Below, piece by piece: positions 22,234 through 43,750 of a stretch of DNA of 64,000 bases (its first letter is position 1; each line of letters starts with the position of its first letter). The stretch is from Lobulomyces angularis. Its lineage: Eukaryota > Chytridiomycota > Chytridiomycetes > Lobulomycetales > Lobulomycetaceae. A program made the position numbers and the translations under genes. The stretch lies in the NCBI GenBank assembly GCA_027604685.1, contig JADHYX010000026.1:36440-100439 (forward strand), in the 5' to 3' direction. The notes under the pieces were generated by a model. That model was not told the origin of the DNA. It did no database searches and saw nothing but the letters and a program-made list of their open reading frames with translations.

Positions 22234-23471
22234 TTTAATATTTTTATCTGTAAATTTTAAAAATGAATTTTTTTAAATTTTTTATTTTTTTTTTCCCCTT
22301 TCATAAAAAGCTTTTTGCTTGGTTCTTCGCTTTAGTTGAGAATTAGAATAGAATTAGACTGTAGTTTGCATACAGTTTGTATATGGTTAAACAAAAGTTA
22401 TTGACTAATTATCTCTATTTCTTGAATATTTCTTGTTTATAAATTAATTTTAGAATGGTGAATAATAAAAATACAACTTCAAAAAGCTTTTAATTATTGT
22501 TAAATTTTTTTGAGCACCTAAACCAAAAAAACAAGAAATTACACCAAAAGTAAAAAAGAAAAAACCAGAAAATCTAGTACTTTCAAATTGACCTTGCTGA
22601 GTTGCATTCTAACAGAGTGTAGATCAATTCTAATAAAAGACAACTTGTTGTATGGTCTAGGTAGTATCGGACAAAAGTTTTAGATATACACAAATGCAGC
22701 ATAGAAAGGAAAACTGGTTTCTTCACTTAATTAATATATAAAAAGTAATATAAAAATTAGATATATAATAAAAGTAAAACTACACTACCTTCGAAATAAA
22801 TTAAGTTAGTTATTAAAAAACTATTCAAATTTTTATAAAAATTATATTTCTAAAGTCTTCGCGTTCAAGTGGTACACCCTACACTGATCACATTCTTTCT
22901 ACAACAATATAGTTACACTATACATACTAGATATTTACAATACATTTATATTCAGTTCTTTTGGAAATATTAGCTTATTTAGCTGGAGGATACAGTCCAA
23001 TTAGCTCAACTCTTCATTAGGGAAAAAGTATAAAAATATTACTTTTATTTCGTTACTACCATCACCAAATTACATTGCGGTTACTTATTGAATCTCAAAT
23101 TCCTCAAAAATCCAAATTGAGAAAGTATTGCAGATTTAAAGTGTAAAAAAAATATGTTGTTCCGAAAATGTACAAAAAAAATAGTAAAAATTTAGACTGC
23201 AAGAAAAAAAAAAATTTAAAATTGATAATTGTAAAAAATTATTTGAAATTTTCAGAAATTATTTAAAAAAATGTTTCATAATTTTATTTTTTTATCTGTT
23301 AAAATAAAATTTAATTTATGTTAAAAATTAAGGTGTAACGTTTTTTTTTTTTTTAAAAAAAAAAATTTAAAAAAAAAAAATTATTTTTTAAAACCAGAAA
23401 TTTTAAGAATAAACTAATTAATTAAAAAACATAAGAGAAATTATAGCAAAGATATAAAGAAAATAGTAAAA
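22234..23471. other. Gene-free divergent region with a repeat fragment
   Basis: About 1.2 kb between the divergent type I membrane protein and TIM23 genes. Positions about 22730-22870 resemble 30775-30895 (shared TTAATTAATATATAAA, AATATAAAAATTAGATA and TTATATTTCTAAAG in the same order), suggesting an old dispersed repeat. The last 300 bp before TIM23 are nearly pure A/T. No gene seen. Confidence 0.5.
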
Positions 23472-28298: not shown

Positions 28299-28343
28299 CA
28301 TTTTTTTGTTACAATATTTTTTGTACTACAATAAAACCTTTTA

Positions 28344-30587
28344 GATAGTGTTTTGGTAATATCATTTTGAACATTAAATATTCAAAAAAAACCAAACACC
28401 AATTAAACTTAAAATAGCGAAAATTATTTAGGAAAAAAACCTATGGTTTATCTACTTAAATAAATTGGTGTAACTCCGTACAATAAAGTACTCATCCTTT
28501 AAAATTAAATTAGCAACGTCATCCCTATTCCTTAATCTTTCAAGTGATACAACAGCATTCAGTGCTTGCTTACAATTTTCGCTTTTACAACAAAGCAATC
28601 CATGAACTGTTATTAATTTTCCTTTTTTACTGAAGTTAGGGTGTTGTCTTTTTTTAAATGTTTTTAAAGATCTCGTTTTACAACCTGGGCATATTGAAGA
28701 AGTTAAAAATTCATTAACTAAACAAACTTGATATCCAGCCTTTTTAAACATTTCCCTAAAACCTTTTCCTTTTATTGGAACTCGGCACTTCATTGCTCTC
28801 GACCAATCTCCAATTAAAACTGATGTGTTTTCCTTACTACCAAATTTACTTTAAATTTTTTATTAAGTTAAGTTTCAGATTTTTGAGTGTTTATGAAAAC
28901 ATTTAGTTTCAATTCTAAATAGTGAATTCCTATAGTGTAATTTTAATTGAGTAAAACGGTACAAGTAGTCCTTTCAATAAAGATTAAATGCATCTGGATT
29001 AAGCAACTTTCGTGATGGTATTGGTAAATTAAAATTTTTTAAACCATTCTTTTCGTAGCATCTTGTTTTGTTAAAAGTTTATTATCATTTTCTAATTTAC
29101 TTCTAATAAATTCATAATGTTTAGATCTACTTTCATGTCTTCTTTGCATTTGAGTATATCTAAGTTTCTCATCATTCCATCCTATATAAAAATATATTAA
29201 TAATTTTTTGATAATTGGTTTTTAGATAATTTACCCAAACAACATGATAAATCTCTTTTAATTGGATCAATGTAAACATGATTTTTCTTAAAAATATTGT
29301 CTTGAAAATATTCTGAAGGTGTATTATTTTTTTTTTTTGGATTATTATGTTTGGGTAGTTCTTCTTCATTGGTTTGCATGGTTGGTGTATCGTCTGGTTT
29401 TTTTCTTTTCTATTCTTTTTTTATTGTTTGTTGTAATGTCTTCTCAGCAACAGTAATTGAAACTCCATCTGTTTCAATTGAACCTGAAAAAACCATTCCA
29501 TTTCTTGATTTGAATGGTTTTTTTTCAAATTAAATAATTTGTTCCCAGATTATCTTTTACATTTAGAGTTCCCATTGTTTGTTCACTACCTAACATTAAT
29601 ACCACTTTTATTAAAATGTTAGTGTCGAATCGAATATGTCTTGGTATAGTTGAAGTAGATAATGGAAATACATTAAATTACAATAAACCAAGTTTATAAC
29701 GCGGCTCAAAATATTTAAAGTATTACAAACATCATAAGGAATAGAATTTTTTTCAATTGTTTCAGGTAATATATTTCTTAAAAGATTAAAAATACTAAGC
29801 TCATATTCATTCAACTCATTGCTAAATGTAATGTTTTCCAAAATTATCTTTTGCACTTGCCTTTTTCTTGCTTGGAAAGCTCTTATCCAATCTTTTTTTA
29901 GCATGTTTTCAGGTATTAATGATAATTGTATTTGAATAAACAAGTTTGAAATAAATGTTTTTAGTTTAGGAACAGAATATTCTTGAATGTTGACAGTATA
30001 GTTTGTAAATATTTTATTAGCTCGATACAAACCGATCTGATCAAAGTACTTGACATTTTCTAGTATGTAGCAAATTCAGTTTTATATTTTTCAATATACT
30101 CCTTTAGTAATTCATTAATAATAGAAGTGCTTCCGGTACTAGTTTTTATTGTTTTTAAATGAATGATTTAAAAACTTGTATATTCTTGTAAAAAAAATCA
30201 ACATTAATCATACTCCATTTGTTTTGGTTAAAATACTTAAAAAAATGAGTTGTATGAATAGTTATTCGATTGCAGTGTAAATTAAATTTTCCTTTTTTAA
30301 TATTGATTAGATGTTCCAATAAATACATTAGTAAACTTTGGTTTTATTACAGGAATGTTTTTGCATTTAGTACAATTTCAATAAAAAAAGTTTAATTTTT
30401 CCTCTCCATTTATAGTTTTTTTTTAAACTTTTTCCTCTCCATTTATAGTTTTTTTTTAAACTTTTTCTTCTCCATTTATAGTTTTTTTAAAGAATTTTGC
30501 AATTATCAAGATTCTAAAAAAGTATTATTGTAAGTTCAAAAAGATAGTGCCCAAGCACTATATAAAAATATAAAAAATTCTAGTACC
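28344..30587 (-). pseudogene. Decayed Fanzor (eukaryotic TnpB-like) element, copy 1
   Basis: A 2.2-kb minus-strand element related to Fanzor RNA-guided nucleases. The N-terminal region (about 30030-29600) has KYFEPRYKLGLL, then FNVFPLST and IPRHIRFDTNIL. The RuvC-I region (about 29270) reads VYIDPIKRDLSCCLG and is split by an intron ending at 29181, followed by WNDEKLRYTQMQRRHESRSK. The RuvC-II block (28793-28700) has IGDWSRAMKCR and VNEFLTSSICPGCK with the acidic residue. A zinc ribbon (CPGC, CKSENC) precedes the RuvC-III motif NRDDVANL. The frame is broken by a shift near 29050, a TGA near 28975, further stops and shifts at 28860-28900, an in-frame stop in KLGLL*FN and a small deletion before the C-terminus. 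It is therefore not expected to make an intact nuclease. Ends are set by homology with copy 2 at 41498-43750. Confidence 0.85.
30396..30490. repeat. 33-bp tandem repeat, three copies
   Basis: Three units spaced exactly 33 bp (CCTCTCC at 30401 and 30434, CTTCTCC at 30467), each followed by ATTTATAG, a T run and AAAC/AAAG. The block lies inside the 5' part of Fanzor copy 1. Copy 2 has only a degenerate single counterpart near 43640, so the expansion happened after the copies separated. Confidence 0.85.
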
Positions 30588-41376: not shown

Positions 41377-41525
41377 TTGGGCCAGGTGTTTGACGGTGCG
41401 GCCCAACTTTTCACTGAAACTTCATTAAATTAAGTTCCTTAACTCACTCTGAACTTGCCAAGAGTGGTCGATATCTAAAACCCTATCCAAAGGTTTGGAT
41501 AGTGCGTTAGCGTTATCTTTTTTTA
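41377..41525 (+). ncRNA. Hairpin cluster, possible structured RNA
   Basis: A GC-richer island with successive perfect stems: TTGGGCC/GGCCCAA (41377-41383, 41400-41406), TTAAG/CTTAA (41430-41442), CACTCT/AGAGTG (41445-41450, 41461-41466) and CTATCCAAA-GG-TTTGGATAG (41483-41502). The overlapping GATAGTGC-GTTA-GCGTTATC (41498-41517) is the end hairpin of Fanzor copy 2. A run of seven T (41518-41524) follows, as at RNA polymerase III terminators. It does not match tRNA, U6, SRP or 5S signatures I can recall. Strand is set by the T run only; transcription from the other strand as a Fanzor-linked RNA is the alternative. Confidence 0.4.
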
Positions 41526-43750
41526 ACAATAAATATCCAAAAAAACAAAAAAACAAACACCAATTAAAAAAATAGCGAAAATATTTAGGAAAAAATTTAC
41601 AACATCTATCTACTTAAATAAACTGGTCTAACTCCATGCAATAAAGTACTTTCTGCTACATCTTTCATATTTGACGTTGCAACATCATCCCTGTTCCAAA
41701 GTCTTTCCACTAATTCCTCATCCACCATTTGCTTACAATTTTCGTTTTTGCAACGAAGCAATCCATGAACTTTCATCAGTTTATCTTTGTTACAGGGATT
41801 TGAATGTTCTCTTTCTTTAAATGTTTCTAAAGACTACTTTTGCATCTTGGGCACATTGATGAAGTTAAAAATTCATTCACCAAATATAGTTGATATTCCG
41901 CCTTTTTAAACATATCTCTAAAACCTTTTCTTTTCGATAGAGTTTGATATCTCATTGATGTTCTTGACCAATCTCCAATTAAAACGGATGTGTTTTCACT
42001 ACCACCAAATTTCTTTAAATTTTTTAATAAATTTACTTTCTGATTTTTGAGTATTTATAAAATTATTTAATATCAATTTTCTAAATAATGGGTTTCTGTA
42101 ATGATATTCTAATTGTTCAAAACGATACAAGTAATCTTTCAAATAAAGATAATATCCAACAGGATCAAGTGTTTTTCTTGATGGTATAGGTAAATTAAAA
42201 TTTCTTAAACCATTCTTTCCATAAAGGTCTTTTTTTGTCAAAGTTTATTATCGCTTACTAATTTCTTCTAATTAATTCTTAATTTTTAGCTTTACTTTCA
42301 AATCTTCGTTGCATTTGAGTATATCTGAGATTTTCATCATTCCATCCTATATATAATAAAAAAAAAAACTGTAGTTATTTGTTTTTAATAATTAACCTAA
42401 ACAATGTTTCTTTTATTTGGATCAATATAAACATGATTTTCTTTTAAAGTATTGTTTTGAAAATACTCTGAAGAACAAATTTTATTTTTACCTTTTTTAA
42501 ATTTTGTTTTGCTGGTTGTTTTGTTTTATCAATTTCCATAATGTAAGGTTTTTTTCTCTTTTTCCTTTTATATTCTTTGTTTATTATGAGTTTTAATGTC
42601 TTCTAAACAAACTGTGATTGATATTCCATCAGTTTCAATTGCCCCTGAAAATTCCATTCCACTTCTTAATTTGAATGCTTCCTTTTTGAAAATAAATAAT
42701 TTACACCATATATTTTCGAGATTATCTTCCACATTTAGAGTACACTTTCACTACCGAGTCCTAAAACAGTGTTTAATAAAACTGTGGTATCAAATCTAAT
42801 GTGTCTTGGTATTGTCGATAATGGAAAAATATTAAATGATTGTAATCTGTACTGTTCATATAATAATCCAAGTTTGTAGTAGGGTTCAAAATATTTTTTT
42901 GTTATACAAATATCAAAGGGAATTGAAATCTTTTTCAACTGTGTTTGGTAATATAGTTCTGAAAATGTCAACGATTTGAATATCAATTTCAGATAATTCT
43001 GAAAGATCACTATTATTTTTAGTATAATTTTCTGCACTAATCACTTCTAAGTTGAAGATGTTTTATCCATTCTTTTTTCAACTTATTTTCAGGCTTTAAT
43101 TTTAAAACTGTTTTTTTTATAATCACTGTTTATAATTTTGGAATAAAATGCTCTTGAATATTAACAGTGTAATTTTCAAATATTTTAGAAGCTTGATAAA
43201 GAGCAATTTGATCAATGTACTTAATATTTTCTTGTATGTAACCGAATTCAGTTTTATACTTTTCAATGTATTCTCATTAATAATAGGAGTTGTTGGAGAA
43301 GTAACTTTTGTAGTTTTAATTGAACGATTAAGAAACTTGTATATTCTAACAAAAAAATTGGAATTAATCAAATTTCATTTTTTGTCGCCAGGGTAATTTA
43401 ACATAAATACTTAAAAAAATGAGTACTATGAATAGTTAATCGATTTGCTAAATAAATAATTGATTGGAGTTTTTGATATTGTTCGGGTATTCCAATAAAA
43501 ACTTTATTAAAATTTGTTTTATGAATGCTATTCTATTTTTTAAAAAATAAAAAAAAAAAGAGATGCGTTTATTTTTTATTTATAGTAAAAATTTAGAATT
43601 AGTTTATGAAGTACTACAATTATAATATATTTAGATTTTTACTTTCCATTTTTTTTTTATTAATAAATATTTATATTTTTTAATTACTATTTTTTTTCTA
43701 TGTTTAAAAAGATAATGTCCCACCACTAATAAAAGATATTTACTAGCACC
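41498..43750 (-). pseudogene. Decayed Fanzor element, copy 2
   Basis: Homologous to the element at 28344-30587 along its whole length. N-terminal block: IPFDICITKKYFEPYYKLG, LLYEQYRLQSFN and FPLSTIPRHIRFDTTVLL (about 42960-42750). RuvC-I: HVYIDPNKRNIV near 42430, with a shift against copy 1, then an intron ending near 42346 and WNDENLRYTQMQRRFESKAK followed by a stop. An intact stretch (42238-42000) reads GKNGLRNFNLPIPSRK to FKEI. RuvC-II: IGDWSRTSMR and VNEFLTSSMCPRCK. A +1 shift then separates the zinc ribbon (HGLLRCKNENCKQ) and RuvC-III (LWNRDDVATSNM), with the C-terminus STLLHGVRPVYLSR. Breaks differ from those of copy 1, so the two copies decayed separately. Catalytic Asp/Glu/Asp positions are still recognisable. 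Confidence 0.85.

Follow-up and report, generated by a model that had tools for sequence, protein, structure and literature searches.

A Fanzor1 transposon family in the chytrid Lobulomyces angularis shares its TIRs with Tc1-like transposase elements and carries a CA target-site mark in one subfamily

The window analyzed here, the whole 64,000-nucleotide stretch C26:36440-100439 of the Lobulomyces angularis genome (20.76 Mb in 533 contigs), contains at 28346-30560 on the minus strand a 2215-bp relic of a 2.2-kb Fanzor1 transposon, bounded by terminal inverted repeats (TIRs) and flanked by TA. The relic belongs to a large chytrid Fanzor1 family that probably consists of transposase-less elements, moved in trans by a Tc1-like transposase from elements with the same TIRs and kept in the genome by their RNA-guided nuclease. 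The initial annotation had placed the element at 28344 to 30587; the element is present there, but its ends differ from these by 2 and 27 bases, one TIR beginning at 28346 and the other ending at 30560. The TIR pair, the transposase elements that share it, the right end with its RNA-like folding and the mark at the target site are additions to that account. The features are listed below by coordinate, from the right end of the element to its left end, followed by the two further copies.

28331..28345, minus strand: flank, putative guide of 14-15 nt (by analogy with SpuFz1, PMC10432273, and from the position of the right end)
28346..30560, minus strand: first Fanzor1 copy, of subfamily A (both ends match the TIR; subfamily from the tree)
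28346..28445, minus strand: right end with a candidate omega-RNA scaffold that finishes with the TIR (base pairing between the TIR and an internal, inverted TIR-like stretch; fold z -2.51)
28452..28850, minus strand: RuvC-II, zinc ribbon and RuvC-III piece, 132 aa open (PDB Fz1 matches; E541 and D606 equivalents kept)
29042..29409, minus strand: RuvC-I block (VYIDPIKRD ... WNDEKLRYTQMQRR) in two frames flanking the intron (D conserved at the D383 position; I at the N385 position)
29182..29234, minus strand: 53-nt GT..AG intron 3' of RuvC-I, phase 1 by inspection (junction homologous within subfamily A)
29528..30075, minus strand: REC/WED pieces with the PRHIRFDT block and the YFDQIGLY region (translated pieces, protein comparison)
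30534..30560, minus strand: left-end TIR (1 mismatch to the family pattern; 0 expected by chance)
41500..43728, minus strand: second Fanzor1 copy (L015), broken (72% DNA identity over 2.1 kb; TIRs; intron-like insert)
22514..22714, plus strand: short third Fanzor relic of the intronless type, weak (tblastn matches to P0015, E 8e-4, and to the RuvC-I piece, E 0.053)

Comparison of the C-terminal piece of the window copy (28455-28850) with the PDB gives the best E-value for Parasitella parasitica Fanzor1 (PpFz1, PDB code 9cf0, E 1.7e-14), with Spizellomyces punctatus Fanzor1 (SpuFz1) at E 2.5e-14 and a weak match to Guillardia Fanzor1 at E 0.14. The name Fanzor is narrowed to Fanzor1 because the Fanzor chains matched in the PDB are Fz1 proteins of three species. 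Pfam profiles run on the window pieces are all below threshold, including Cas12f1-like_TNB (E 0.0021 and 18.6 bits, where the cut-off is 26.3). The proposal of a Fanzor element in a fungal genome is confirmed and made more precise; the outcome that would have refuted it, a lack of any significant match, did not occur, and the Pfam evidence alone is weak. Aligned with SpuFz1, the window copy has a chain offset that is constant (394) at three points, so that VYID, VNE and NRD correspond to SpuFz1 D383, E541 and D606. These catalytic D, E, and D equivalents are all kept, an isoleucine occupies the position of the metal-contacting N385, and the zinc ribbon in the TNB domain (ICPGC ... LLCCKSENC) aligns with SpuFz1. 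Relatives of the window copy match Fz1 proteins across RuvC and TNB in the same way as the window piece, the longest open one (L036, C216, 332 aa, the C-terminal part of a copy) matching SpuFz1 with an E-value of 5.8e-53 over query residues 10-328, closer than its match to PpFz1. The peptides quoted in the initial annotation are all located in minus-strand frames from 28452 to 29677, and its description of the copy as disabled is borne out, the frame being interrupted by both stops and shifts: the window copy is dead. An open frame upstream has its stop 47 bases from the element and a sub-threshold cyclin match (PF08613, E 0.036), and an Rfam scan of the window at gathering scores gives no match.

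The TIRs of ~28 bp are present at both ends of the window copy, with TA at its ends, and the TIR pattern has 67 + 56 = 123 matches in the genome compared with 0 for the reversed control. Two of the elements with a TIR at both ends, C280:11219-13731 (2513 bp) and an element on C70 (1447 bp), code for an HTH/DDE_3 transposase. The C70 piece matches HTH_23 with E 1.6e-7, and the broken C280 pieces match DDE_3 with E 1.6e-6 and 6.7e-5, both below the curated cut-off, which is exceeded in the near-identical protein P0086 of Clydaea vesicula (E 1e-11). The transposase-type ends are six in number (C280b, C280a and C70). Also counted as "transposase-type" is the 1042-bp C280 element (L080), which resembles the transposase element in its TIRs and subterminal bases, comparison with P0086 finding no transposase in it. 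Five of the six ends share 27-28 of 28 bases with the Fanzor right end L012 and 27 of 28 with L051, L056 and L022, the sixth (one C70 end) reaching 24-25. Compared with the decayed TIRs of the window copy, the transposase-type ends agree at 25 or 22 of 28 bases for the left end and at 22 of 28 for the right end. The presence of DDE_3 and HTH inside shared TIRs places the transposase partner, by sequence, in the Tc1/mariner superfamily. Stops or shifts interrupt the longest transposase matches of the genome, and no whole open transposase frame is seen among the copies read; the transposase copy on C89 has no TIR of the Fanzor type within the 1.3 kb read, and the C137 relic was dropped as a source of transposase-type ends since the TIR near it points away from the transposase match. 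Flanks joined around one TA give no empty site in the same genome for five elements (of 13 listed), the queries returning 10 rows that are their own flanks and a single partial match at 76%.

The bases directly outside the TIRs distinguish one subfamily of the Fanzor elements. SpuFz1 needs 5'-CATA, and SPu-1 elements bear CA before the left IR (PMC10432273). In L. angularis, CA precedes TAGTG at the left end of 15 of 19 subfamily-B copies (three have TA and one CC), compared with 1 of 30 right ends (Fisher 3.5e-8), none of the six transposase-type ends (Fisher 0.0012 against the subfamily-B left ends), and one of seven subfamily-A left ends (Fisher 0.005 against subfamily B), where the window copy has TA and C122 has AA. 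A further 11 ends of TTGCGC or TTGTGC type, whose interior is unclassified, have CA in 0 of 11, which together with the transposase-type ends gives 0 of 17, and the background frequency with which CA precedes TA in the window is 3.6%. Removal of three less certain left ends (C196, with a badly decayed TIR, and C488 and C262, assigned by proximity) leaves CA in 12 of 16 (Fisher 5.4e-7 against the right ends). The locus count and flank table were compiled by hand: 18 left ends come from 24 matches, after exclusion of five partial matches that stop short of the TIR and one right end, with C181 (L050) added, and the right ends are the 29 readable of 40 places with C63 added, four of these 30 being partial or weak and possibly outside subfamily B. 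Farther out the flanks vary between copies, and the subfamily-B copies therefore look like separate insertions.

The residues of SpuFz1 that contact the TAM are R96, Q129, Q130, N133 and R291 (PMC10432273), of which R96 falls outside the alignments. The equivalents of Q129, Q130, N133 and R291 are Q, Q, I and R in the subfamily-B protein P0015, with N133 replaced by I in subfamily B; they are Q, Q, N and K in P0001 and D, Q, L and G in the subfamily-A protein P0011. The QQ pair is present in six of the seven readable L. angularis B copies, and the A copies have mostly DQ. By inspection, the TAM residues appear to match the presence of the CA mark, and the CATA mark suggests that the nuclease helped the element to stay in the genome.

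The right ends of 36 copies were aligned, each beginning after the stop codon and extending to the TIR. In the SpuFz1 system this region contains the omega-RNA, with a 75-nt scaffold between the stop codon and the right IR followed by a 14-15-nt guide (PMC10432273), and the right end of the L. angularis elements fits it in place and size by analogy. All eight of the 36 right ends that were folded singly have z-scores between -2.51 and -7.55, compared with -0.02 to -1.95 for six left ends and -0.75 to +1.22 for five transposase-type element ends. The stem is formed by the TIR paired with an inverted TIR-like stretch, and a small hairpin upstream is found in five of the eight folds, partly in L004, and is absent from L001 (the window copy) and L012. 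The structure named from these folds, which was chosen after looking at the same sequences on which it was tested, pairs in 90.8% of 725 cells compared with 88.4% in shuffles (0/500) and has 13 double-change cells compared with 4.3 in shuffles (0/500), versions slid along the alignment pairing in at most 48.1%. The pairs with double changes number three, a count reached by 134 of 500 shuffles, and at columns 23/40 of the small hairpin an A-U pair is changed on both sides in 11 of the 36 copies (nine C-G, two U-G). RNAalifold on the 36 right ends returns no pairs and no consensus. The folding calculations suggest that the right end folds like an omega-RNA, unlike the left end and the transposase-type ends.

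The size of the family was estimated by two genome searches, one by DNA with 28344-30587 as the query (at least 71 matches) and one by protein with the 132-aa piece (at least 150 matches, the weakest counted having E up to 0.002). Merged at 2.5 kb, these give at least ~117 Fanzor loci on 101 contigs. The search for live relatives suggested in the initial annotation thus finds the relatives, and no whole uninterrupted Fanzor frame is seen among the loci read, which are a subset of all loci. Several stop-free C-terminal matches (C25, C196, C175, C515 and C462) lie at contig ends, so that collapse in the assembly may conceal intact copies. Among the 100 listed TIR places (of 123), 23 lie no more than 500 bases from a contig's first base (e.g. 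C184:48, C291:46 and C509:50), a sign of assembly breaks at the Fanzor family, and the youngest copies have therefore probably been collapsed.

A tree of 38 C-terminal pieces, in which 10 of 35 inner branches are starred, separates subfamily A (21 rows, support 99/98, including the window copy) from subfamily B (nine rows, support 98/96) and pairs L049 with a Clydaea protein (99/95), Clydaea vesicula proteins being present in all three groups. One locus, L056 (C38), has type-B ends and is placed on a long branch among the A rows; its ends are taken as the better guide to its assignment. The L. angularis database proteins HDU92_002143 and HDU92_007081 match L050 (C181) and L019 (C59), respectively, at 99-100% over their main parts. 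Values of dN/dS are 0.10-0.25 in 17 of 21 pairs (four are saturated and several more have dS >1.5) for the seven stop-free copies among 23 loci whose C-terminal match spans 96 aa or more, a choice that favors conserved copies. The level of these ratios nevertheless shows a Fanzor protein under purifying selection for much of the spread.

The region between RuvC-I and the RYTQMQRR block was compared in 19 distinct loci, 15 of which have an insert of 43-102 nt; the four without an insert at the intron place are all of subfamily B, and the intron is therefore a trait of one lineage. The initial annotation had read this intron as a eukaryotic adaptation, which agrees with the 15 loci and does not extend to the four that have none. 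GT and AG are exactly at the homologous junction in 10 of the 15, the other five being decayed or offset by a few bases. Lengths such as 46, 48, 53, 54 and 58 among copies do not keep the frame, and this fits removal by splicing. Because SpuFz1 aligns without a gap at the intron place to the intronless L036, gain of the intron in subfamily A is the simpler account. The longest insert, 102 nt in L030 (C352), looks as though the usual intron, together with its 5' exon edge, had been duplicated internally.

A live element would have been a 2.2-kb unit with TIRs of ~28 bp and a TA target that coded for Fanzor1 only, with an omega-RNA behind the stop codon of which the 3' part would be the right TIR itself and the guide would be the flanking DNA. 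It would have had no transposase of its own and would have been moved by the Tc1-like (DDE_3) transposase from other elements with the same TIRs. After excision the complex of RNA and protein would cut the empty site beside the target motif (CATA in subfamily B), and repair from the sister copy would then restore the element. Several observations count against this reading: no whole open frame of Fanzor or transposase is seen among the copies read, the five elements searched show no empty site, RNAalifold gives no pairs for the right ends and the structure counted there was chosen after inspection, the small hairpin is missing or incomplete in three of the eight folds, the transposase relics on C89 and C137 are not seen to be enclosed by this TIR, subfamily A, with the window copy, does not share the CA mark, subfamily B has I at the N133 position, and L056 sits in the tree apart from the subfamily of its ends. 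There is about an even chance that the two enzymes formed a two-part system of this kind, the transposase moving Fanzor elements in trans and Fanzor keeping them by cutting emptied CATA sites, with the CATA mark as its natural record at the left ends of elements that have SpuFz1-like TAM residues, missing in relatives that lost these residues and at transposase-type ends. The observations can also be read as those of a plain non-autonomous Tc1/mariner passenger, where Fanzor has no role in the spread and the CA mark either belongs to the left end or reflects a peculiarity in how the transposase chooses its targets. A transposase on separate elements with the same TIRs would suffice for such mobilization in trans, and the copies read contain no whole Fanzor frame. 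This reading is nevertheless fairly unlikely, as the protein has been under purifying selection (dN/dS 0.10-0.25), CA is found at subfamily-B left ends and in only 1/30 right ends, 0/6 transposase-type ends (0/17 when extended) and 1/7 subfamily-A left ends, and the outer flanks differ between copies. That Fanzor is a domesticated nuclease in the service or defense of the host, with the transposon relics as by-products, is highly improbable: selection on the protein speaks for it, and the biological role of Fanzor is called unknown in PMC10432273, but the loci are dispersed (at least ~117), many have stops or shifts, TIRs are present where the ends are readable, and no intact gene is found among the loci read. 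Both readings are rated below mobilization in trans with retention by the nuclease.

The fold at the right end raises a separate alternative, that it is a feature of the DNA, such as a palindromic transposase binding site, and not of an RNA. The stem consists of the TIR and an inverted TIR-like copy that could be a second transposase site, and the missing RNAalifold consensus agrees with this. The fold is, however, found at the right ends and not at the six left ends and five transposase-type ends folded, and the small hairpin that follows the stop codon, separate from the stem, contains a pair changed on both sides in 11/36 copies. The right-end fold also occupies the place of the 75-nt scaffold in the SpuFz1 omega-RNA (PMC10432273), and taken together these points make a pure DNA feature decidedly unlikely.

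Fanzor1-only elements with TIRs and TA targets are already known as a kind, SPu-1 being an example, and the L. angularis family adds to them the Tc1-like transposase elements with the same TIRs, the right-end fold, the CA mark of subfamily B and the dN/dS values of 0.10-0.25. Among prokaryotic relatives of the system, IS200/IS605 elements contrast with Fanzor1 elements in TIRs. The IS200/IS605 TnpB is likewise an RNA-guided nuclease, with an RNA from the transposon end and a proposed re-copying after excision, and differs in being bacterial and accompanied by the TnpA transposase (PMC10432273). The closest parallel is SPu-1 with SpuFz1 in Spizellomyces punctatus, which according to PMC3627910 and PMC10432273 is of the same size (~2.1-2.2 kb) and likewise combines a Fanzor1 gene with ~30-bp TIRs and TA targets, without coding for a transposase. 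PMC10432273 also describes the RNA region between the stop codon and the right TIR, the CA before the left TIR that gives CATA (here in subfamily B), and short Fanzor-less "ghost" elements, to which corresponds L082, 538 bp in length with Fanzor-type left and right ends and too short for the gene. The L. angularis genome differs from what is described there in containing Tc1-like transposase elements with the same TIRs, where the authors report having found no transposase flanked by the SPu-1 IRs (PMC10432273), and in having subfamily A with an intron behind RuvC-I and without the CA mark, the copies read being decayed or incomplete. PUl-1, PUl-4 and PGv-1, from other hosts, are similar in that their Fanzor1 elements have Mariner-type TIRs and insert at TA, and PUl-4 was reported earlier to code for Fanzor only and to have TIRs equal to those of Mariner elements, whereas the shared TIR in L. 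angularis, a chytrid, is that of a Tc1-like DDE_3 transposase (PMC3627910 for the Mariner-type elements). The Fanzor family CMe-1A of Cyanidioschyzon is similar in size (~150 copies) and differs in having no TIRs and an unknown class (PMC3627910). Among the titles and opening lines of abstracts searched, with many subscription papers outside this scope, no report of L. angularis Fanzors was found. The interest of the genome lies in a transposase that shares the TIRs and provides a control for the target mark, and in the natural contrast between subfamilies; a TIR-matched transposase together with subfamilies that differ in TAM residues and insertion mark allows the retention model to be tested both comparatively and experimentally. 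If the model is true, the CATA mark makes the L. angularis genome a natural record of Fanzor activity.

Several smaller observations concern individual proteins and elements. The Clydaea vesicula protein P0086 and the broken C280 copy (L081, C280:11100-13850) align in three segments with identities of 93% (including a 14-residue gap), 97% and 100%, and the gap and an extra residue of P0086 coincide with a stop or a missing residue of the C280 copy; this likeness reflects either contamination common to both assemblies or the transfer, very recently, of one relic. The 2.5-kb transposase element has a second, opposite frame of 158 aa (L081:408-881, plus strand) with a sub-cut-off match to DUF7310 (coiled-coil, E 0.0012). 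In P0004, also from Clydaea vesicula, the gene model fuses a PF08706 part, which we take to be a D5-type helicase N-terminus, to the Fanzor C-terminus, possibly a Fanzor element within a virus-like or plasmid-like stretch or else an error of the model. An 852-bp element on C115 (L065:1501-2352) has TTGCGC-type TIRs at both ends. The TIR ends of L061 and L072 are at contig edges with unclassified subterminal sequence (ATATAACAAATATTTTTGAAACAATT) and perhaps represent a further family that shares the TIRs.
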